A DNA stretch of 64,000 nt from positions 372,001-436,000 of the forward strand of contig MLPZ01000001.1 of the NCBI GenBank assembly GCA_001885315.1, written 5' to 3'. This stretch comes from Treponema sp. CETP13. GTDB taxonomy: Bacteria > Spirochaetota > Spirochaetia > Treponematales > Treponemataceae. Positions 5,716 to 16,518 of this stretch are shown here, one piece after another. The number at the start of each line of letters is the position of its first letter. The first letter of the stretch is position 1. The position numbers and the translations under genes were made by a program. The notes beneath the pieces were generated by a model. That model saw nothing but the letters and a program-made list of their open reading frames with translations. It did not search any database and was not told where the DNA came from.

Positions 5716-6195
5716 ATGAAAAATGATTTTCTAATACAGTGTAGTAGATTTTGCTCAAATCCTGTTTTGCAAGCTAGCTTATTAAGTTGGTTAGCTGCAC
5801 AGTTTATTAAAACAATATTACATTTGTTTACGCACCAAATCCACAATGTAAAAGAGTTATTAGAGATGCTTTTTTGGCGTACTGGAGGAATGCCTTCAAG
5901 TCATTCTTCGTTGGTAACAACAATGACTACGTGTATTGGATTCAGATCTGGTGTTAGTTCTGATTTGTTTATTTTAGCGTGTTGTTTTATTCTTGTCGTC
6001 ATTCGAGATGCAGTAGGAGTTCGTCGATCTAGTGGGGATCAAGCTAGAGTGTTAAATGAAATCGGTACAAAATTAGAAAAATCAAAAATAATCGAGTTTA
6101 GTCCTGTTAAACAAATTAATGGTCATAGTCCTGGTGAAGTATGTACTGGTGTGATATTAGGGTTTCTTATTGGGCTATTTTTTTCTTGTAAATAG
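5716..6195 (+). CDS. DUF212 / divergent PAP2-family membrane protein
   Basis: A small integral membrane protein of the divergent PAP2 (DUF212) family, related to acid phosphatases and vanadium haloperoxidases. The signature GGMPSSHS is at 57-64 and a second RDAVGVRRSSG-type motif follows near 98-110; His at the end carries a further conserved HSPGEV sequence near 139-144. Four membrane segments are plausible in 159 residues. The substrate is unknown; lipid phosphate is a reasonable guess from the superfamily. It is six bases upstream of the next membrane-protein gene and heads the run into the Rnf-like operon. Shine-Dalgarno is weak. Confidence 0.8.
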   Translation: MKNDFLIQCSRFCSNPVLQASLLSWLAAQFIKTILHLFTHQIHNVKELLEMLFWRTGGMPSSHSSLVTTMTTCIGFRSGVSSDLFILACCFILVVIRDAVGVRRSSGDQARVLNEIGTKLEKSKIIEFSPVKQINGHSPGEVCTGVILGFLIGLFFSCK

Positions 6196-6201
6196 AGATT
6201 T

Positions 6202-7665
6202 ATGAAATTTTACCTAAAAATATTTTTTGCACTATTCTGTACTATCTTTTGTGTTGTTTTTTTATTCAGATTTAGAGTTATTCCATCTGGTGGTCTATGG
6301 AAATCATATAAAACTGTTTATGTAGATAAAACGTATCCTCAAGACTCTGTTCTTGATATTTTTTCCTCTTTACATATTAAAGGGGTTCTATCACAAAATC
6401 ATGTTCAATATCCTCAAAGATCTAAGTTTGTGCCTGTTACAGTACCTCTAGTTCTTAATGGGTTTACATATTCAGAATTACAAAATATGTATTTTTCAGA
6501 TAAAAGTGCTGAGTATGATTTGTACTATGTTCCAAACGAATATTCAAATAAAATAAAGCTTGTTTTAAATAAGATTCCTGTTGAATGTGGGAGCAACATT
6601 CAATCTCAATATATTCTTTTTCCGTTTTTTATAACGGGACTATTTTTTATAATCTTGTTTTTTTATTCAAAAAATAAAAAGTTTTTTTTATCTACTTGTT
6701 TACCTCTTGTTCTTTTCTGTTTTTCTGTTCCCTTTGTTTATATGTGCGCTATTTCAGTTGTGTGCATGTTTGGTTTTTTTTCTTTGCAAACTATATGGGA
6801 TAGGGAAAATTTTTCGCTCATGTTATCTCGACAAATACATATCTATGTACAATTAATTGCTTTTATATTTTTTGCGTTTTTTTCAGGGGCTTCTGTTTTT
6901 AAACTTGCTTGTATCACCTTTTTGTTAATATTGTCATTATTGTATCTTGTATACAAAGCTCAAAACCTTTCATATTCAACTTCTTTTTTTCAACCTCTAA
7001 AGATAAAAAAAGCAACACAAATAAACTGGGTATATTCTATAAATCCTATTTTGATAGTTTTATTTGTTATTGTAGTTTTTATAATTTTTCCTGGTTCACT
7101 TTTATTTAATAGTTTCGAAATCTCAAAAGTCTCAAAAGACCTATACATTCCAAGTCCTTCGCATTATACTAGCAAAGGTTTTACAATAGAAAATTATGAA
7201 AAGGCTGTGGAAAATTCTAAAAAGAATGTCGATATATTACCAAGTTTAGCAGACTATATTGGAGCAGCATGGTGTATTGAGACGTCCCCTTATTGTAGAC
7301 TTCCTAAAAATCCTGAAAAAGTATCAAGAGGTTTACCTCAATTAGGGGATTCTGTTAATATGCCAGGATATAAAGAAGATAAGGATACTGTAACAGAATA
7401 CTCTTTTTATAATAAAGTATATAATTCAACGTATATTTCTAATAAAATTCATGAAATAAAGAGAAACGCTTCTATGACAGATTATTCTGCTGGAGCAGAA
7501 AAGTTATTATATTCAGAAAATTCTTTTGTTTCTGGCGTTTGGATAAATATAAATATGCTTAATTTAAGTGTTAAATCATATATATTTGCAAGTATAAGTC
7601 TCATACTTGGATTTTGTTTATCATTTTATGTTAAGTATAAGAGAAAAAAATTAAGGATTATATAA
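6202..7665 (+). CDS. Unknown multi-spanning membrane protein upstream of rnfC
   Basis: I do not recognise the family. The 487-residue product has an N-terminal signal anchor, an extracytoplasmic domain of about 110 residues (30-140), five or six hydrophobic segments between 140 and 300, a second soluble domain (about 310-455) and a final membrane helix followed by a basic tail (KYKRKKLR). The soluble part has two cysteines close together (WCIETSPYC). The gene ends one base before rnfC and is clearly in the same transcript, so a role in assembly or function of the Rnf-like complex is a fair inference, not shown. Several poly-Phe/Ile helices make it strongly AT-rich. Confidence 0.75.
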   Translation: MKFYLKIFFALFCTIFCVVFLFRFRVIPSGGLWKSYKTVYVDKTYPQDSVLDIFSSLHIKGVLSQNHVQYPQRSKFVPVTVPLVLNGFTYSELQNMYFSDKSAEYDLYYVPNEYSNKIKLVLNKIPVECGSNIQSQYILFPFFITGLFFIILFFYSKNKKFFLSTCLPLVLFCFSVPFVYMCAISVVCMFGFFSLQTIWDRENFSLMLSRQIHIYVQLIAFIFFAFFSGASVFKLACITFLLILSLLYLVYKAQNLSYSTSFFQPLKIKKATQINWVYSINPILIVLFVIVVFIIFPGSLLFNSFEISKVSKDLYIPSPSHYTSKGFTIENYEKAVENSKKNVDILPSLADYIGAAWCIETSPYCRLPKNPEKVSRGLPQLGDSVNMPGYKEDKDTVTEYSFYNKVYNSTYISNKIHEIKRNASMTDYSAGAEKLLYSENSFVSGVWININMLNLSVKSYIFASISLILGFCLSFYVKYKRKKLRII

Positions 7666-7666
7666 A

Positions 7667-8956
7667 ATGGCTGTAAAAAAGCAATATTTTAATTTTACCA
7701 AATATACATTTTCTAAAAAGAAAATAGCATATATTCCTGAAACTCTTTTTGTTTCTTTGAATCAATATGGAGTAGAAGAATGTGTTCCTATTGTTAGACT
7801 TGGAGACATAGTCTATGAAGGTCAACCTATTGGTCGTTGTGCAGGGGATAATGCATTAGTACATTCTCCGGTTCCGGGGGTAGTGACAGGTTTTGATTAT
7901 TTATCCATGCCTAATGGAAAAAGGTCTTTAACTGCAATTATTAGAGTGAATGGTAATTTCACATATACGGGTAAAGCTGAGTCTGTTTCAGATTGGAAAC
8001 TCTTATCTGCTACAGAATTAATTACTTTATTTAAAAATAAAGGTATCATTAATACTTTTTTTTATAAACCAGAATCGCTAGCAAAGCAATGTATAGATAG
8101 TTCTATTATTGGCAAAACTTTGTATGTAAGTTTATTTGATAAACAATCAGATATTTATGTTGATGCTTTTTTAACAAAATTTTATTTAGAAAAGATAGTT
8201 GTTGGAGCTCAAATAGTGGCTAAAGCTATTAAAACTTCTAAAATAGTGTTTTTTTATAATGAATCAAGCTCAAAAAAACTTGATTCATGTATAAAGTCAT
8301 TAATTTCTAGTGATATAAAGGCAGAATGTGTTTTTATTCGGGATGGTCAAAATGTAAATATTGGGAAAGATACTTTTTCAGAAATTGTAAGTAAAAACTT
8401 TCCAGAACAAAAAGATCTCAAATCCCCAGCTTTTTGTATTGGGAGCTCTTCTCTTCGTGATGTGTACAATGGGGTAGTATTATCTAAGCCTGTTATTGAT
8501 CAAATGGTTCAGGTTGTTGGTAGTGGGCTATACAAATCTAATTTATTCCAAGCTCGCATAGGGACTCCAATAAAAAATTTAATATATGAATGTGGTGGAA
8601 CTCGTAAAATACCAGGTAAGATTATTGTTAATGGATTGGTTCAGGGTATTGATATTGCCGATATAAATACGCCTATTACTAAATTTGTAAAATCTATAAC
8701 AATACTTGAAAAAAAAGAATTACATAATGCTACTATATCAAGTTGTATACATTGTGGAAGATGTCATACAATTTGTCCTGTTGGCATTCATCCTGATAGT
8801 CTGTTTTTAGCATATACAAGTAAGGTTAGCGTTTCTAAAGAGATTCTTGCAACTAAAAATTGGTGTTCAGAATGTGGATTATGTAATACAGTATGTCCAG
8901 CTAGATTGCCGTTAAATCAGGTTATCTCTCTATTAAAGGAAGAAAATAATGACTAA
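7667..8956 (+). CDS. rnfC: RnfC-like electron transport complex subunit, divergent
   Basis: The peripheral subunit of an Rnf-type ferredoxin-linked membrane complex. The N-terminal barrel-sandwich region (about 30-75), an SLBB-like region (about 280-345) and two ferredoxin motifs near the C-terminus are present: C360-C363-C366-C370 and C400-C403-C406-C410, for two [4Fe-4S] clusters. What should lie between, the Complex1_51K-type NADH/FMN-binding segment with its GxGGAGFPT glycine-rich loop and NGAECEP motif, is not recognisable: the aligned part reads GIINTFFYKPESLAKQ. So NADH oxidation by this subunit is doubtful. It overlaps rnfD by eight bases. Length 429 is close to the compact members of the family. 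Confidence 0.85.
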   Translation: MAVKKQYFNFTKYTFSKKKIAYIPETLFVSLNQYGVEECVPIVRLGDIVYEGQPIGRCAGDNALVHSPVPGVVTGFDYLSMPNGKRSLTAIIRVNGNFTYTGKAESVSDWKLLSATELITLFKNKGIINTFFYKPESLAKQCIDSSIIGKTLYVSLFDKQSDIYVDAFLTKFYLEKIVVGAQIVAKAIKTSKIVFFYNESSSKKLDSCIKSLISSDIKAECVFIRDGQNVNIGKDTFSEIVSKNFPEQKDLKSPAFCIGSSSLRDVYNGVVLSKPVIDQMVQVVGSGLYKSNLFQARIGTPIKNLIYECGGTRKIPGKIIVNGLVQGIDIADINTPITKFVKSITILEKKELHNATISSCIHCGRCHTICPVGIHPDSLFLAYTSKVSVSKEILATKNWCSECGLCNTVCPARLPLNQVISLLKEENND

Positions 8957-10007
8957 GCAATATAAAAAATTAGATTTAGCTCCATATCATTTTTTAGTTC
9001 CCTCTGTTGGAGATATGCTTTTATTATCTATTGTATTAATAATACCCCAACTTATAATGCTCTTTGTTACTAAGAGCTTCTCTTCTATTGCTTTAGTTAT
9101 TATTGCTGTTCTTTCCTCTTTTATAGCAGATTTTTTAGATATTTTTTCTGCGAATAAAAAGTATACATTTTCGTGGGCTCCCATTTATCAAGGGTTAATT
9201 ATTGGTTTTTTTATTCCTTCAGGTTATCCTCCAGTTCTTGCTTTTTGTATTATTCTATTTATACTAATAATCGATAAATATGCCTTTGGTGGATTTGCAC
9301 AATCATGGGCGAATCCTGTTATGGTTACAATTATTGTCATGTTTTTTTTGGGGCCTCAATATTTTCCTCCTTTTATTCTTTCCCCTTCTTTTTTACAAGG
9401 CTCAAATGCTGGAAGTGAACTTTTTAATCAAGGAATCCTTAATTATGGAAGCTATGATGCTGGGGTTACTACATTCTTAAACGAAAAAATTCTTTCTCAT
9501 TTTGGAATCTCTATCCCATTGGGGTATGTGACACTTATTTGGGATACAGGTTCTGTAATCCCTGCATTTCGTTTTAATCTTTTAACCCTTTTTGCCTCTT
9601 TATTTTTGCTTACGTGCAAAACAATTGAAGGGTTAATTCCTTTTGTATTCTTATTTGTATATGCAAGTTTAGTTTCTTTATTTGGATTATTTCCTTATGG
9701 TAGAATGGTTGGTGGAGGAGATATACTTCTTGCACTTTTAACAAGTGGGACTCTATTTGCAACTTTTTTTCTTCTTGAGTGGCATGGTACTTATCCTCAA
9801 AGTGTGATAGGAAAGATTATTTATGCAATTTTGGCTGGAGTTATTGCCTTTATAATCATAGGATGTGGGGCTTCTCCTGTAGGAATTTTATTTACAATTC
9901 TTGTAATAAATGTTCTTACTCCTTTGATTCAAAATGTAGAGCGTTCTGTTTATTCCTTAAATATTAAGAAACGTATACAAAAACAAACGGTGGAGGAAAT
10001 AAAATAG
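8949..10007 (+). CDS. rnfD: RnfD-like membrane subunit
   Basis: An integral membrane subunit related to RnfD/NqrB, with about nine or ten hydrophobic segments in 352 residues. The sequence AFGGFAQSWANPVMV (about 112-126) corresponds to the conserved FGGLGxNPxNPA motif. The periplasmic loop with DAGVTTFLNE may be the counterpart of the loop that carries covalent FMN on Thr in other RnfD proteins; a Thr is present but the surrounding motif is weak. The late motif FFLLEWHGTYP replaces the usual FMATDPVT-type segment. The start overlaps rnfC and has a good Shine-Dalgarno (AAGGAA). Confidence 0.82.
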   Translation: MTKQYKKLDLAPYHFLVPSVGDMLLLSIVLIIPQLIMLFVTKSFSSIALVIIAVLSSFIADFLDIFSANKKYTFSWAPIYQGLIIGFFIPSGYPPVLAFCIILFILIIDKYAFGGFAQSWANPVMVTIIVMFFLGPQYFPPFILSPSFLQGSNAGSELFNQGILNYGSYDAGVTTFLNEKILSHFGISIPLGYVTLIWDTGSVIPAFRFNLLTLFASLFLLTCKTIEGLIPFVFLFVYASLVSLFGLFPYGRMVGGGDILLALLTSGTLFATFFLLEWHGTYPQSVIGKIIYAILAGVIAFIIIGCGASPVGILFTILVINVLTPLIQNVERSVYSLNIKKRIQKQTVEEIK

Positions 10008-10008
10008 A

Positions 10009-10464
10009 ATGAGTGATATAAAAGATTTACGTGAAGGTGGCATTGTTGCTGGTATATTAATTGTCATTTTTTTATTGCTTTTTTCTCTTTCATTTCCAGT
10101 GAGTGCAGAGAAAAAAGAAGGACTAGCTGTTGCTATTCAAAATGTTTTTGATTCTGAAAATGATGATAACTTAAAAGTCGGCGAATTTATTCCTATTAAT
10201 TCACCCTTACAAACTTCCTTGTCAGTTTATACTGTTTTAGGCCAACAGGAAGATATGTATGCATGTATTATACGAATAACTGGAATCTGTGGCCCAGTGC
10301 CTGTGGTCTTTATTTATTCTGCGTTGCAAGGAGCAAAATACTTTGGAATCGCAGGAGAATTTAATAAGGTTACAGATTATGATTTAGCTGGCATATCATA
10401 TACACAAATAAATTATTGGAGTAAAAAAATCCCTACAATAATTGAGGGGAGCTTAAATGAATAA
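10009..10464 (+). CDS. rnfG: RnfG-like subunit without flavin-attachment motif
   Basis: The position between rnfD and rnfE, one N-terminal membrane helix (about 13-33) and an extracytoplasmic domain identify it as RnfG-like. The segment GICGPVPVVFIYSA matches the GYGGPI..LVGID part of FMN_bind domains. It has only 151 residues against roughly 190-215 usual, and neither the ETPGLG motif nor the [DS]xITGAT[VI]TS motif with the flavin-linked Thr is present. So covalent FMN is unlikely unless attached elsewhere. Shine-Dalgarno GGAGG is good. The identity rests largely on context; confidence in the family is moderate. Confidence 0.68.
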   Translation: MSDIKDLREGGIVAGILIVIFLLLFSLSFPVSAEKKEGLAVAIQNVFDSENDDNLKVGEFIPINSPLQTSLSVYTVLGQQEDMYACIIRITGICGPVPVVFIYSALQGAKYFGIAGEFNKVTDYDLAGISYTQINYWSKKIPTIIEGSLNE

Positions 10465-11071
10465 AAAAAATGCATTACAATATATAATTCTAGCATCTTT
10501 TTATTGTATTCCATGTCCTGCAAGACTTGGATATGGACTAATATTATTATTAGTTTTTAATATTTTAGTATTAGTTTTAACTTGTACAAAATATTTATTA
10601 ATTAAAGCTAAGCTAGAAAAATATTCAAAAATATTACAAATTATTATAGCTGTGGCTATTACTGTTTTTTGTAACCAATTACTTTCCTTGTATTCACCAT
10701 TACATTCTCTTGTTTTAGGTAATATTTTATACATAATTCCTGTGTCTTCTATATTTGGTGGACTAATTATAAGGAAAAGAAAATTATTATTAGCAGCCGA
10801 GTTAAAACTTTCTATGAGTCGGGCAGGGGTTTTTACTTTGCTATCTCTTGTATATTTTTGTGTCCGTGAATATTTGGCTTATGGTACACTATCTTTCCCT
10901 TCTCATACAGGTTTTTATATATCAACCCTTCCTTCTTTTAATATAGGAGTAGGAATTTTCTGGGCAAGTGTTCCTGGAGCATTTGTATTATTTGCCATAT
11001 TTATTATTATCATGTCAATAATATATAGATACAAAGAAATAAAATGGAGATCAGAAAATAATAATGCTTGA
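10457..11071 (+). CDS. rnfE: RnfE-like membrane subunit, divergent
   Basis: A six-helix membrane protein of the RnfE/NqrD type, 204 residues. Retained features are a Cys-Pro near the first helix (C17-I-P-C20-P), corresponding to the LGLCP motif, and REYLAYGTL (about 136-144), corresponding to REILGxGTL. The second conserved half-site, NCIILGRAEAFA, is replaced by VSSIFGGLIIRKRK, so the second of the cysteines that hold the intramembrane [2Fe-2S] cluster is missing. It overlaps rnfG by eight bases and rnfA by eight, with a strong Shine-Dalgarno (GAGGGGAG). Confidence 0.75.
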   Translation: MNKKNALQYIILASFYCIPCPARLGYGLILLLVFNILVLVLTCTKYLLIKAKLEKYSKILQIIIAVAITVFCNQLLSLYSPLHSLVLGNILYIIPVSSIFGGLIIRKRKLLLAAELKLSMSRAGVFTLLSLVYFCVREYLAYGTLSFPSHTGFYISTLPSFNIGVGIFWASVPGAFVLFAIFIIIMSIIYRYKEIKWRSENNNA

Positions 11072-11621
11072 AACAATTTTTATTTATGTAATAGTCTCTT
11101 CTGTGACATTAGTATACGGAATAGGACTTAAAAAATTATATATATTTTCTATTAAACCTCATCATATACTTGCCTATTTTATAAAATCATTGCTGAGTAT
11201 TGCTGCAAGTATTTCTCTGACTTGGAGTATCACAAATTATTTGCTCGCTCCGTTTGACTTGTCGAAAATATATCCTTTTTTTGCTATTTTATTTACCATT
11301 TTCTTTTGTATGATTTTTCAAAGATTTATTTTTGCATCATTTAAAATTGATACTGCAGAGTTTACCCTTACTTTTTTGACAGTAATAGTTGCTGTTGGAG
11401 AAGCTGTAAGTTTTCCCAATGCAATGGTCATAGGATTGAGTTGTTGTATTTCTTTTTATTTGTTAATTCCAGTATTAGAAGCGATTAGAAATCAAATAGG
11501 ATTTTTAAAAAATCATTCTGTTTTTTCAACAGAAACATTAATTTTTATAAGTTTTGCTCTCATTATTTTTGCTTTCTTTTCATGGAATGTGTCGTGGTTA
11601 AATTTGGGAGTTTATAAATGA
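11064..11621 (+). CDS. rnfA: RnfA-like membrane subunit, divergent
   Basis: Six membrane segments in 185 residues and its place between rnfE and rnfB make it the RnfA/NqrE counterpart, which is the inverted-topology homologue of RnfE. Both conserved Cys motifs of RnfA are gone: the GICPFLGVS position reads TLVYGIGLK, and the TTNCAVLG position reads VAVGEAVSF. The cysteines that remain (one in FFCMIF, two in LSCC) are in other places. A membrane [2Fe-2S] cluster formed with RnfE as in canonical complexes therefore seems unlikely. The stop overlaps the start of rnfB as ATGA. Confidence 0.72.
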   Translation: MLETIFIYVIVSSVTLVYGIGLKKLYIFSIKPHHILAYFIKSLLSIAASISLTWSITNYLLAPFDLSKIYPFFAILFTIFFCMIFQRFIFASFKIDTAEFTLTFLTVIVAVGEAVSFPNAMVIGLSCCISFYLLIPVLEAIRNQIGFLKNHSVFSTETLIFISFALIIFAFFSWNVSWLNLGVYK

Positions 11622-12211
11622 TTTTATCAATTTTCTTATGTATATTGACTTGTGTTTTTTCTGTTGCTTTATATTATGTAGCTTTATATAAAAGCGTAGA
11701 TAATTCTTTAGAAATGCTTTGTTCTAAAGAGGAATATGAGTTAATTGATGAAGATTATATTCTTCCTTATAAAACTGATAATTCTCAGAAAGCTGCTATC
11801 ATGTGCAAAGATTATAAAGATCCGTCTCGTAAACGATTGGATTATACAGGCTATGCTGATTGTCGTTTGTTTAAGGCAACTTATGAAACTGAATATTTCT
11901 GTAAAAACACTTGTTCTGGATTTGGTGATTGTATAGATGTATGTCCTCAAAACGCTATATTTGTTGAAAATGGTATTGCAAAAGTTCTTCAATCTTGTAA
12001 TGGATGTGGATTATGTGTAGATGTATGTCCACAAAATCTAATTAAGCTTGTTCCTGCTGACAGTGAGGTTTGGATAGATTGTATTGCTCCTGATTGCTAT
12101 GAAGTAAATGAAAAAATATTGAGCGAAGATAAAATAGATGGAGTTTTTGACCCAATGAGAAAAAAAATTGAATATTCTAAAAAGAAACACTTTAAAATAT
12201 GGCAATCATAG
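11618..12211 (+). CDS. rnfB: RnfB-like ferredoxin subunit lacking the N-terminal Fe-S domain
   Basis: An N-terminal membrane anchor (1-24) followed by a cytoplasmic Fe-S domain. Two [4Fe-4S] ferredoxin motifs are intact: C95-x3-C99-x5-C105-x3-C109-P and C127-x2-C130-x2-C133-x3-C137-P. The AAIMC segment (59-63) and DYTGYADC (75-82) match the region of RnfB just before the ferredoxins. The preceding domain with the ANCGACGYPGC motif is absent; only about 30 unconserved residues separate the anchor from AAIMC. At 197 residues it is shorter than typical RnfB. It is translationally coupled to rnfA (ATGA) and ends 16 bases before the GH57-like gene. Confidence 0.83.
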   Translation: MILSIFLCILTCVFSVALYYVALYKSVDNSLEMLCSKEEYELIDEDYILPYKTDNSQKAAIMCKDYKDPSRKRLDYTGYADCRLFKATYETEYFCKNTCSGFGDCIDVCPQNAIFVENGIAKVLQSCNGCGLCVDVCPQNLIKLVPADSEVWIDCIAPDCYEVNEKILSEDKIDGVFDPMRKKIEYSKKKHFKIWQS

Positions 12212-12227
12212 GTTAACATAAAAAATA

Positions 12228-14195
12228 ATGAATAATATAACAATCTGTTTTGGTTTAACTTTTACTGTTAGGGGAATTCTTTCTTCAGAAATAGAAAAAA
12301 AATATCAAAATTATTACAAAAATATATTTTCCTATTTATATGCTCATACGACTCTTAATGTATGTATTTTTTTACCGGGCGTAATTTTAGAATGGTTTGA
12401 AAAAAAACACCCTGAAATTCTTGATGTTTTAACAGAACTTGTTAAAAGAAAACAAATTGAAATCCTTGGTGGTGGTTATTATGAACCTTTATTACCACTA
12501 CTACTCCCAAAAGATAGAGTTGGGCAAATAGAGGCTTTAACAACTAGGATTAGGAAAGCAATAGGGAAGAGACCTCGCGGAATAACTTTGGCAGAAAGTA
12601 TTTGGGATCCATCTCTTATTTCTAGTTGTAATTCCTGTGGTATAGAATATGCTTTTCTCGATAATAGGCTAATCCCTCGAAATTCATATCGATCTGTTGC
12701 ATCTTATTCACCTTTAATTGTAGAAGATTTAGGAAGAACTCTCACAGTTATACCTCTGCATCAAGATACTAAGCCGACTGTAAAACAATCTTCTGAATTT
12801 TTTTTTGAGCATCTTAAAAATGCTCAGAATTCTGGAAATTCTTTTGTATATGCATGTTTTTTTAGCCCTGAGGAATTCGATGAATTAATTCAAACGGCTT
12901 GGTTGGATGAATTTTTAGAATTAACAGCTAAAAATACGAATATTAACCTTTCTATTCCAAGCATTTACTTAAAAGAATGCCAAATAGTAAATAAGACATT
13001 TATTCCTGCAGGTTGTATGTCTGATGCTGCTATGTGGACGTTAGAACCTTTTGTTCCTCATGCCAAAGTTTTTTCAGAGGCATTACGTCCAACAGTTCGT
13101 GATTTTTTAACTCTTTATCCAGAAGCACAAAAATTATATTCCAGAATGATGAATATAAGTTCAATGATTTCTCAATGTAAGGGTGATAAAGCACGGCGAA
13201 AAACTGCTCGTGAATATTTATGGATTGCACAAAACTATGCCGTATATATGTTTACAGGTAAAGGTGGAATTACAGATCAGAAACTTAGACAGTATTCATA
13301 TAGTAATTTATTGCGTGCAGAACAGCTTGTTCGAGACGCTTCCAATTTTGTAGATAATACAACGTGTTTTGATTTTGATTTTGATGGAATTTTAGAATAT
13401 GTAAATCGATTTACTACCTACAATGCTTTTATTTCACGTCATGGTGGTATGATTACCGAACTTGATATAATGCATAATTATGCTAATTATTGTGATGTAA
13501 TGCCGCGAATACGAAAATATGATGGTGTTACAGATTTATATGCTAAAAATATGTTTGTGGATCATTTTATTCCTGCTGAAAAGGATGAGGAGTTAGAATT
13601 TAACACACATCTTTTATCTAAGCTGAATCAACAGTTGTATAATCAAAAACAGTTTGAAAGATCTAGACATGAACTCGTTTTAGAAACTGTAGTTGAAATA
13701 GGAGATTTAAAACAAAATCTCTCTGTGACAAAAAAATATACACTGAATGAGAACGGCATATTAGTTCAGTATATTTTGAGAAATGAAAGTGAGGAAAATC
13801 TTACTGGTTTTTTTGGGGTCGAAAATAATTTTTCTGTTCCTTATAAATCTAGCGCAAACATTCAATTAGAAGTTCTTCTAGAAGGTAAAAAAGAAATACC
13901 TTCTAGTGATACGTATTATATAAAACAATCAGACATAGGGCTTTTACAGCTTACAGATACAGACGCAAAAAATAGTTTTGTGCTTGAACCGAATGAAAGA
14001 GCTGGGATTTGTATACAACCTTTATATTCAGCTCGACCTGACGAATCTGGTTCTGTAGAGCCTCGTTACGAAGCTAATACCTGTACTTTTTTTTGGAAAA
14101 TTAGTCTAGAGCCTGGTATGGAAATTGAAAAAACACTCAACATGGCAATAAATACTGCAAAAAAAAAGTCAGTTGCAAAAAGAAAACGAAAATAG
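12228..14195 (+). CDS. GH57-like protein (4-alpha-glucanotransferase fold), probable altered active site
   Basis: Residues 1-300 follow the (beta/alpha)7 barrel of GH57 4-alpha-glucanotransferases and the remainder follows the DUF1925/DUF1926 C-terminal beta domains. GGGYYEPLLP (81-90) and the RPRGITLAESIWDP segment are clear; the Glu of LAES is residue 123, the same number as the nucleophile of the Thermococcus litoralis enzyme. The HxHQP motif at the N-terminus reads ICFGLTF, the acid/base motif DDGEKFG reads FFSPEEF, and the substrate-binding NDAYWHG segment reads NYAVYMF. It is therefore probably inactive as a glucanotransferase or has another activity. It follows rnfB by 16 bases and precedes metG by 13. 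Confidence 0.78.
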   Translation: MNNITICFGLTFTVRGILSSEIEKKYQNYYKNIFSYLYAHTTLNVCIFLPGVILEWFEKKHPEILDVLTELVKRKQIEILGGGYYEPLLPLLLPKDRVGQIEALTTRIRKAIGKRPRGITLAESIWDPSLISSCNSCGIEYAFLDNRLIPRNSYRSVASYSPLIVEDLGRTLTVIPLHQDTKPTVKQSSEFFFEHLKNAQNSGNSFVYACFFSPEEFDELIQTAWLDEFLELTAKNTNINLSIPSIYLKECQIVNKTFIPAGCMSDAAMWTLEPFVPHAKVFSEALRPTVRDFLTLYPEAQKLYSRMMNISSMISQCKGDKARRKTAREYLWIAQNYAVYMFTGKGGITDQKLRQYSYSNLLRAEQLVRDASNFVDNTTCFDFDFDGILEYVNRFTTYNAFISRHGGMITELDIMHNYANYCDVMPRIRKYDGVTDLYAKNMFVDHFIPAEKDEELEFNTHLLSKLNQQLYNQKQFERSRHELVLETVVEIGDLKQNLSVTKKYTLNENGILVQYILRNESEENLTGFFGVENNFSVPYKSSANIQLEVLLEGKKEIPSSDTYYIKQSDIGLLQLTDTDAKNSFVLEPNERAGICIQPLYSARPDESGSVEPRYEANTCTFFWKISLEPGMEIEKTLNMAINTAKKKSVAKRKRK

Positions 14196-14208
14196 TAGTA
14201 TATCAACT

Positions 14209-16518
14209 ATGAAAAGAAGATTAGTAACCTCCGCATTACCTTATGTAAATAATGTTCCTCATCTTGGAAACTGTATCCAAGTTTTATCAGCAGACGTTTT
14301 TTCTCGTTTTTGTCGTAGTCGTGGCTATGATACACTTTATGTTTGTGGTACCGACGAATATGGTACTGCTACTGAAACTAAAGCTTTAGAAGTAGGTAAG
14401 TCACCACGTGAACTTTGTGATTATTATCATGCTATCCATAAAGAAATATATGATTGGTTTGGTATAAATTTTGATAATTTTGGGCGTACTTCAAATCCAC
14501 AGCAAACTGAGATTGTTCAGCAGATGTTTAAAGATGTATATGCCCGTGGTTTTATAAAAGAAAACACTATTGAGCAACTTTATTGTCCAAAATGTGAACG
14601 TTTTTTAGCAGATCGATATGTTCGAGGAACTTGTCCAAAATGTGGTTATGAAGATGCTGGCGGTGATCAGTGTGAAAACTGTGGTGCTTTATTAGATCCG
14701 ACAGAATTAGTAGAACCACATTGTAAGACATGTGGGTCTACTCCTACATTAAAATCAACAAAGCATTTGTACATTGATCTTCCAAGAATTCAAAAAGAAT
14801 ATGCACCTTGGATGGAAAAAGCAAGTGTCGAAGGTCGTTGGGCTAAAAATGCTTTACAGATGACTCAAGCTTGGATAAGAGATGGATTACATGAGAGGGC
14901 TATTACTCGAGATTTAAAATGGGGTATTCCCGTTCCTTTAGAAGGATTTGAAAATAAAGTTTTTTATGTGTGGTTTGACGCTCCTATTGGATATATTTCT
15001 ATAACAAAAGAACTTGATGATAAATTAAAAGCACAAGGCGCTTCTACTCAAATCGATTGGAAATCTTGGTGGCTACCAACAGAAAGTGAAGATCCTTCAG
15101 CTAAAAAAGATGTAGATTTATTCCAATTTATTGGTAAAGATAATATTCCATTTCATACTGTCATATTCCCAAGTACTTTAATTGGTTCAGGCAGAGATTG
15201 GACAAAATTATACCATATGAGTAGTACTGAATACTTAAATTACGAAAATGGTAAATTTAGTAAATCAAAGGGTGTCGGTGTTTTTGGAACAGATGCAAAA
15301 GAATCCGGTATTCCTGCAGATGCTTGGCGATTTTATATTTTTTATAATCGTCCAGAAAAATCTGACACTCAATTTACTTGGAAAGATTTTCAAGATAAAT
15401 TGAATTCTGAACTTATAGGAAATTTAGGAAATCTTGTAAATAGAACTACCACTTTTATTAGTAAATTTTATGATGGAATTATTCCTCAAGGATCTCGTGA
15501 CGAAAAATTATGGTCTCAGGTAGAAACTCTTGAAAAGAAAATGACAGATCTTTTGGAATGGGCAAAACTTAAAGATTCTTTTCACGAAATTTTTAAAATT
15601 TCATCTATAGCAAATAAGTATTTTCAAGATGGAGAGCCGTGGAAAACTCGAAACGAAAATCCAAAAGCAGCTGCTAACCTTTTATGGAATTTAAGTTATG
15701 TCATTAAAGATTTAATGATTATGGCTCATCCTTTTCTGCCTCATTATTCAGAAGAAGTTTTAGGATTTTTTGGTAAAAAAGGTTGTACGGGTAAAATAGG
15801 GCAGCCTCAACCAGAAGGTTTTTTAAATTGGTCTGATTTAGGCAAAACGGAAGGACTGTCTAAAATTGAAGGAGCTCATATTATCTTTACTCCTTTAGAT
15901 GATGAAAAAACTGATGAGTATCGTCAGCGATATGCTGGTAGCCAAGAAGAACGTCAAGAAGCAGAAAAAAAGGGTAAACCTAATAAAAAAAAGAAACATA
16001 CTCAAGAAAAATTATCATCTGTAGAACTTTTTAATAAGAATATTTCATTACGAGTTGCAAAGGTTCTTTCTGTTGAACGTCATCCTGATGCTGATAAACT
16101 GTATGTTGAAAAAGTAGATGATGGAAGTGGTGAAGAAAGGATTATTTGTTCAGGGCTTGTTCCTTATTTAAAGGAAGAGGATATCTTAGGAAAAAACATT
16201 GTTATCGCATATAATCTTAAGGGCCGGAAGATGCGTGGAGTTGAAAGCCGTGGTATGCTTTTGGCTGCGGACTATAAGAATGACGATGGTTCTGATGCGG
16301 TTGAAATCTTGGAATGCCCTTGGGCAGCTCCTGGTGATGAACTTACACTAGAAGGTTCTGATGTTTCATATGAAAAACCAGAAAGCATTAATGCTGACAA
16401 ATTTTTTGCAGTGCCAATTAAAGCAGTTAATGGAGTAGTCAAAATTGAAGATAAAGCTCTTGTAGTTGCTGGAAAACCAGTATGTACAACAAAAGCTTTA
16501 AACTCTGAAATTAGTTAA
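14209..16518 (+). CDS. metG: Methionyl-tRNA synthetase
   Basis: Charges tRNA-Met with methionine. I take the ATG at 14209 rather than the in-frame TTG at 14173, which overlaps the GH57-like gene; the sequence then begins MKRRLVTSALPYVNN as in treponemal MetG. The class I HIGH-type motif reads HLGN, a four-Cys zinc knuckle pair (C-x2-C repeats) spans about 125-175, and the KMSKS-type motif reads KFSKSKG. After the anticodon-binding domain a lysine-rich linker leads to a C-terminal EMAP/CsaA-type tRNA-binding domain (LRVAKVLSVERHPDADKL). Length 769 aa fits MetG with this appended domain. Confidence 0.95.
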   Translation: MKRRLVTSALPYVNNVPHLGNCIQVLSADVFSRFCRSRGYDTLYVCGTDEYGTATETKALEVGKSPRELCDYYHAIHKEIYDWFGINFDNFGRTSNPQQTEIVQQMFKDVYARGFIKENTIEQLYCPKCERFLADRYVRGTCPKCGYEDAGGDQCENCGALLDPTELVEPHCKTCGSTPTLKSTKHLYIDLPRIQKEYAPWMEKASVEGRWAKNALQMTQAWIRDGLHERAITRDLKWGIPVPLEGFENKVFYVWFDAPIGYISITKELDDKLKAQGASTQIDWKSWWLPTESEDPSAKKDVDLFQFIGKDNIPFHTVIFPSTLIGSGRDWTKLYHMSSTEYLNYENGKFSKSKGVGVFGTDAKESGIPADAWRFYIFYNRPEKSDTQFTWKDFQDKLNSELIGNLGNLVNRTTTFISKFYDGIIPQGSRDEKLWSQVETLEKKMTDLLEWAKLKDSFHEIFKISSIANKYFQDGEPWKTRNENPKAAANLLWNLSYVIKDLMIMAHPFLPHYSEEVLGFFGKKGCTGKIGQPQPEGFLNWSDLGKTEGLSKIEGAHIIFTPLDDEKTDEYRQRYAGSQEERQEAEKKGKPNKKKKHTQEKLSSVELFNKNISLRVAKVLSVERHPDADKLYVEKVDDGSGEERIICSGLVPYLKEEDILGKNIVIAYNLKGRKMRGVESRGMLLAADYKNDDGSDAVEILECPWAAPGDELTLEGSDVSYEKPESINADKFFAVPIKAVNGVVKIEDKALVVAGKPVCTTKALNSEIS

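Follow-up and report, generated by a model that had tools for sequence, protein, structure and literature searches.

A predicted GH57-family pseudoenzyme linked to rnf operons across Spirochaetia, and a treponeme Rnf stripped of most redox ligands

The window, a stretch of 64,000 nucleotides from Treponema sp. CETP13 (contig MLPZ01000001.1, positions 372,001 to 436,000), holds the rnfCDGEAB gene set in that order, with the gene for a GH57-like protein, GH57L, in last place. The features of the locus are as follows.

7667..8956, + strand: divergent RnfC; two [4Fe-4S] Cys motifs kept, FMN/NAD motif lost (TIGR01945)
8949..10007, + strand: divergent RnfD; flavinylation motif lost (PF03116, 2.9e-35)
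10009..10464, + strand: RnfG-position protein of 151 aa; no flavinylation motif (fold match)
10457..11071, + strand: divergent RnfE; both membrane [2Fe-2S] Cys absent (HHalign, 99.4%)
11064..11621, + strand: divergent RnfA; both membrane [2Fe-2S] Cys absent (HHalign, 99.05%)
11618..12211, + strand: short RnfB of 197 aa; eight central Cys kept, N- and C-terminal cluster motifs lost (motif comparison)
12228..14195, + strand: GH57L, a GH57-like pseudoenzyme, 4-alpha-glucanotransferase-like, 655 aa (Pfam, PDB match, AlphaFold2, lost motifs, omega)

The window RnfC scores 159.9 bits against TIGR01945 (cut-off 245.95) and RnfD 71.8 bits against TIGR01946 (cut-off 207.05), and searches of Pfam and NCBIfam gave no Rnf model for the window RnfG, RnfE or RnfA. 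Across the treponeme operons, profiles built from canonical sequences only find RnfC and RnfD in 73 of 73 cases each and RnfB in 50 of 50, but merely 28 of 73 RnfA and 9 of 73 RnfE. RnfA and RnfE are described as mutually related (PMC12174285). When the treponeme sets are aligned to the canonical ones with HHalign, RnfA pairs with RnfA at 99.05% and RnfE with RnfE at 99.4%, while RnfE pairs with canonical RnfA at 57% and the remaining cross pairings give 0.04-0.30%; a misassignment of RnfA and RnfE was rejected on these like-to-like values. Homology can be regarded as safe for RnfC and RnfD from the profile searches, and for RnfA and RnfE from the profile comparison. The RnfG-position protein has no match of any kind in Pfam or NCBIfam, and its assignment, a weak one, follows from gene position and the rank of fold matches: in Foldseek, each of the five top-ranked PDB matches of its AlphaFold2 model is an RNF G subunit (E 0.01 and probability 0.99 for the best), the VIA Z is weak at 5.5, and the HHalign value for the set against canonical RnfG is weak too (4.6%).

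The GH57L reading frame is intact, with an ATG start and no internal stops. Its three Pfam domains each lie above the cut-off (Glyco_hydro_57, 3.1e-25; AmyA-A_glucT_m, 7.2e-9; AmyA-gluTrfs_C, 7.3e-17), and its sole PDB relative by sequence is the 4-alpha-glucanotransferase of Thermococcus litoralis, TLGT (1k1w, E 8e-38). A structure prediction and comparison with this enzyme, as the original prediction had proposed, returned a TLGT-like fold. In particular, the AlphaFold2 model, which was based on an alignment of 41 sequences (row L178 having been removed for an internal stop), has a mean pLDDT of 90.1 and a pTM of 0.90; 1k1x is its top Foldseek match (6.6e-45), and VIA-align places 594 residues on 1k1x at 3.0 A with a Z of 35.3. 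By Pfam and the predicted model, the barrel, the middle domain and the C-terminal domain are all present, the last with its mutarotase-like beta-sandwich, so that GH57L shares all three domains and the overall fold with TLGT (1k1w/1k1x/1k1y). No signal peptide is apparent by eye, and the protein is taken as cytoplasmic. (The next gene, metG, is listed at 14173-16518, its TTG start overlapping the stop of GH57L; it more likely begins at an internal ATG (MKRRLVTSALPYVN).)

GH57L differs from TLGT at the sites of catalysis. The original prediction had described a protein with its nucleophile Glu123 in place but without the general acid Asp, the N-terminal His-Gln-Pro or the substrate-binding NDAYWHG, and alignment to TLGT bears out each of these points. 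TLGT E123 aligns with E123 of the window protein; TLGT D213 and D214 align with F212 and S213 in the stretch FFSPEEF, which puts a Ser in the acid/base column of Asp214, and TLGT E216 aligns with E215. TLGT D354, W357 and H358 correspond to A338, M341 and F342. The N-terminus reads ITICFGLTFTV, and an HNHQP-like sequence is absent from the protein.

Protein searches recovered GH57L orthologues in 113 of 118 Treponemataceae genomes, including all 87 that are at least 90% complete; the five genomes without a match (G007, G016, G025, G068 and G079) are 59-80% complete. The Treponemataceae alignment has 84 rows (83 plus the window; L024 and L029, from the same genomes as L051 and L055, were omitted, and the 294-aa fragment L111 and the partial L012 were counted), and the addition of 35 rows from other families gives a Spirochaetia set of 119. 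Neither DDGEK nor HxHQP occurs in any of the 119 aligned rows; YWHG is found in 0/84 Treponemataceae rows and in 3/35 from the other families, and the acid/base column holds D or E in 26 of the 119. Even the nucleophile is not conserved among orthologues: position 123 in the Treponemataceae is A in 23 rows, E in 10, S in 10, G in 8, N in 7, C in 6 and Y in 5, with others in the rest, and Glu is present in 19 rows of the whole Spirochaetia set. Because degeneration recurs in 84 of 84 Treponemataceae rows, the motif loss is not a matter of chance. Throughout the sample the acid/base motif is gone, and on this alignment the nucleophile loss is accordingly read as later or repeated. The Glu123 of the window protein, as judged from this column, is a relic; that it marks retained catalysis was considered and rejected, since just 10 of the 84 treponeme rows keep it. 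All motifs are intact in five of five homologues from outside the Spirochaetia (L256-L260), and in a quick tree a single branch with an SH-aLRT of 100 parts 50 Spirochaetia rows from six intact rows, so that one change is needed and the motif loss is read as having a single origin. Only two rows of 119 (L223 and L226) combine Glu123 with an Asp in the aligned acid/base column, and at this edge of the family there may be an active relative; L223 has in addition retained YWHG, together with an rnf operon of canonical type, and so may lie near the ancestral state.

Selection on the gene has been purifying, with omega between 0.032 and 0.144 in 13 of 14 pairs of close orthologues (undefined in the remaining pair). 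A pseudogene was rejected on this evidence and on the distribution among the good genomes. By sequence, then, GH57L is a conserved pseudoenzyme under purifying selection, and the pseudoenzyme interpretation in the original prediction is strongly supported by the motif loss across the family together with this constraint.

The best clue to the function of GH57L is its linkage to rnf. In the window, 16 bases separate the end of rnfB (12211) from the start of GH57L (12228), as had been noted before; the accompanying remark that rnfB is a strange partner for a glucan enzyme does not survive comparison, because this arrangement is the rule. Genes for Rnf adjoin GH57L in 75 of 79 Treponemataceae loci and in 32 of 35 loci from other Spirochaetia families, and the same synteny led to rejection of the idea of a misplaced gene. 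In the Treponemataceae the exceptions are L055, where the contig ends, and three loci with no rnf nearby (L101, L103 and L108); elsewhere they are L222, L235 and L239. The gap from the last rnf stop to GH57L has a median of 53 bp (quartiles 6 and 100, maximum 496, n=72) and exceeds 150 bp in eight of the 72 loci; the gene just before GH57L is that for RnfB in 49 of these and for RnfA in 23. Where GH57L is unlinked, a divergent RnfC lies elsewhere in the genome in G042, G063, G075, G123 and G248, and G236 (locus L222) has no RnfC above 100 bits beyond the canonical one. The fetched stretches around the five intact homologues contain no rnf operon, with one RnfC-profile match a few kb from the homologue in L257.

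The operon itself had been taken as an ordinary one, and this view has to be revised, because this copy has diverged and is missing most of its redox ligands. It shares with the RnfABCDGE complex (7zc6, 9eri, 8rb9) the gene order C-D-G-E-A-B, which holds at most of the other loci as well, and the Fe-S domain of RnfC, but it differs in having a seventh gene and in lacking the membrane [2Fe-2S] Cys, the FMN-linked Thr motifs and the FMN/NAD motif of RnfC. In the structure paper on the Clostridium tetanomorphum complex, the four RnfA/RnfE Cys are described as invariant and the FMN attachment sites as Thr153 and Thr164 (PMC9588780), and conservation in Rnf/Nqr is reported for all four membrane Cys and for the two FMN-linked Thr (PMC9588780, PMC12174285). 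None of the four membrane Cys is present in the window. When 73 GH57L-linked treponeme operons were compared with 20 canonical spirochaete loci, the RnfC motif GxGGxxFP was found in 0/73 versus 20/20 and the RnfD flavinylation motif in 2/73 versus 18/19; the first and second Cys are kept in 6 and 0 of 73 RnfA and in 12 and 1 of 73 RnfE, versus 18/18 for each in the canonical set. The RnfG flavinylation motif remains in one linked treponeme locus (L096), versus 15/19 canonical ones, and RnfB, present in 50 of the 73 operons, is missing in 23. The cytoplasmic [4Fe-4S] sites have fared differently: all eight Cys of RnfC are kept in 104 of 104 operons, and the central Cys of RnfB are nearly always kept where that subunit is present.

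The same genome encodes, on another contig, a canonical RnfC (466 bits), in an operon (L269) that shows every expected motif and is not followed by GH57L. By this comparison the window operon is a divergent second copy, Rnf2. A strong canonical RnfC is present in 41 of the 48 Treponemataceae genomes of the phylum sample and absent from seven. In families f10, f12 and f14 (e.g. L223, L241, L245 and L249) the linked operon retains the membrane Cys and usually the other motifs, which argues that GH57L sits behind canonical and stripped operons alike and that the ligand loss is no artefact of the method; the linked operons of L227 and L237 look intermediate. (The canonical RnfG of the genome under study, at 8169-9779 on the - strand of L269, has 536 aa and two SGAT flavinylation motifs, as if its FMN-binding domains had been repeated; RnfG is similarly long in L270, L273, L284 and L285.)

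In one species the stripped operon appears to stand alone. In the single-contig genome G019 (1,139,633 bases), one protein aligns at 926 bits over the full 415 residues of 1o75, the 47-kDa antigen of T. pallidum, and on the strength of this match G019 is taken as that species. GH57L is present (L110), the sole RnfC is the divergent one, the linked operon has no RnfA or RnfE Cys, no RnfD motif and no FMN/NAD motif in RnfC, and an RnfB match is absent from the whole genome. The RnfC of this operon is extended: its open frame runs to 539 aa and carries a long insert at the place of the lost FMN/NAD motif. Among the 31 genomes of family f6, which to judge by genome form are probably Borreliaceae, GH57L is absent. 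At the three loci examined there, a fused RnfC-RnfD protein of ~775 aa (PF03116, 1e-8) without CxxC adjoins a Cys-poor RnfA-like protein. In L294 the fusion (6018-8336) and the RnfA-like gene (8333-8893) lie beside a release-factor gene, and a 490-aa membrane protein of unknown family is encoded upstream of the fusion.

Taken together, the homology and fold of GH57L, its motif loss, its synteny, the purifying selection on it and the ligand loss in the linked operon, all of which are observed, lead us to favour, with moderate confidence, a cytoplasmic GH57L without catalytic role that serves an Rnf-type complex as a subunit or assembly factor; in treponemes this complex, Rnf2, would have been repurposed. 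GH57L would be derived from a GH57 4-alpha-glucanotransferase but catalytically dead, and in an organism ancestral to the Spirochaetia its gene would have come to stand last in an rnf operon, the product presumably docking on the cytoplasmic RnfB/RnfC module. In the simplest story, the GH57 gene joined a working operon, as the families with a canonical linked operon, where GH57L would sit on a working Rnf, suggest; this operon then underwent duplication, or persisted alongside a second one, and the redox sites disappeared from the copy linked to GH57L. Having lost the residues that would bind the membrane [2Fe-2S] cluster and the flavins of RnfD, RnfG and RnfC, and kept the cytoplasmic [4Fe-4S] sites, Rnf2 has probably ceased to move electrons across the membrane in the manner of Rnf, and it may instead serve as a membrane-anchored Fe-S relay, a sensor or an ion-conducting scaffold. 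Several findings count against a subunit: G236 has GH57L with no adjacent rnf and a canonical RnfC only, L223 and L226 keep Glu123 and the acid/base Asp, the gap is wide, up to 496 bp, at eight of 72 loci, and the probable Borreliaceae keep a remnant of Rnf without any GH57L.

A broader reading, for which we consider the chances even, is that the treponeme complex is a 'pseudo-Rnf', a scaffold without a transmembrane electron path and with a dead GH57 protein as seventh subunit, rather than a redox-driven ion pump; the probable Borreliaceae, with their fusion and their Cys-poor RnfA-like protein, would be further along the same path. If so, the chemiosmotic role proposed for Rnf in T. pallidum needs revision, since the stripped form is the only one there. 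A conserved membrane complex that keeps its scaffold after cofactor loss, which can be seen as the counterpart of a pseudoenzyme at the level of a whole complex, would matter more than the dead GH57 protein itself.

The original prediction had also suggested that the protein binds glucan or another polymer. In its fuller form, with the dead barrel binding maltodextrin or another polymer and reporting carbon state to the Rnf complex, this is unlikely: the fold and the C-terminal beta-sandwich are kept and a CSR2-like GGGYY stretch and W126 are conserved in the family, but hardly any row, or none, retains HNHQP, NDAYWHG or DDGEK, the residues conserved instead do not belong to known glucan-site motifs, and T. 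pallidum keeps GH57L in a genome of 1.14 Mb. Binding of this kind thus finds no support.

That Rnf2 is still a redox pump which uses other ligands and is stabilised by GH57L seems to us quite improbable. To explain the supply of ATP in T. pallidum, an RNF pump of noncanonical, flavin-dependent type has been put forward, in passages that name no rnf genes (PMC7512555), and the complete set of Fe-S Cys in RnfC and the central Cys of RnfB, where present, speak for this reading; yet the membrane Cys and FMN-linked Thr that are conserved in Rnf/Nqr (PMC9588780, PMC12174285) are almost all absent, and nearly a third of the treponeme operons (23/73) have no RnfB. Because the only rnf operon of T. pallidum was found without the ligands needed by the pump described in these passages (PMC7512555), that model is directly testable.

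The suggestion that GH57L is an enzyme of new activity, using other residues, must be rated as very doubtful. New invariants are seen throughout the family (D320-K321, D382, K502, N519 and W623, and likewise E365; Q100, G118, W126 and F443 are invariant too), a G-D-K-x-R-K motif precedes the site of the lost NDAYWHG, and two rows, L223 and L226, keep both catalytic letters; against this, most of the invariants lie outside the barrel motifs, there is no new invariant acidic pair at the old catalytic motifs, and with the substrate motifs gone the residues conserved instead differ from known glucan-site motifs, so that this suggestion too is left without support. The low conservation (mean column identity 39%) might suggest a relic in decay that travels with the operon, but this reading is close to refuted by the presence of GH57L in all 87 good Treponemataceae genomes and by omega values of 0.03-0.14.

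For a non-catalytic GH57L within an Rnf-type complex there is a possible parallel in the chloroplast NDH complex, a mutarotase-like subunit of which (9grx_2, 7wff_b) matches the C-terminal sandwich of GH57L in VIA-align. This subunit, which we take to be the non-catalytic PnsB2/NDF2, is a sugar-enzyme fold within an electron-transport complex, as is proposed here for GH57L, but it comes from another enzyme family and another complex. Published GH57 '4AGT-like' proteins, which are bacterial and have one or both catalytic residues replaced (PMC6037648), are similar to GH57L in bacterial host, in length (623 in the table) and in substituted catalytic residues, and GH57L, being bacterial, nearest to 4AGT among GH57 proteins and altered at a catalytic residue, falls within their definition. 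Treponema goes unmentioned in the main text of that paper, and no link to rnf was seen in the parts consulted (PMC6037648). Among open-licence PMC papers, none was found that ties GH57 pseudoenzymes to rnf or describes a stripped treponeme Rnf. Dead GH57 proteins were thus already known, with no function assigned in the parts of the literature consulted, and the fixed place of GH57L behind the rnf genes now gives it a testable role.

The only other GH57 protein of the same genome is encoded on contig C17 (L002, 661-2241, - strand), after a gene for a 220-aa protein. It reads GFWLPFMGYVPG at a position where the GH57 branching-type sequence is presumably GFWLPEC, and it may also be a dead GH57 protein.
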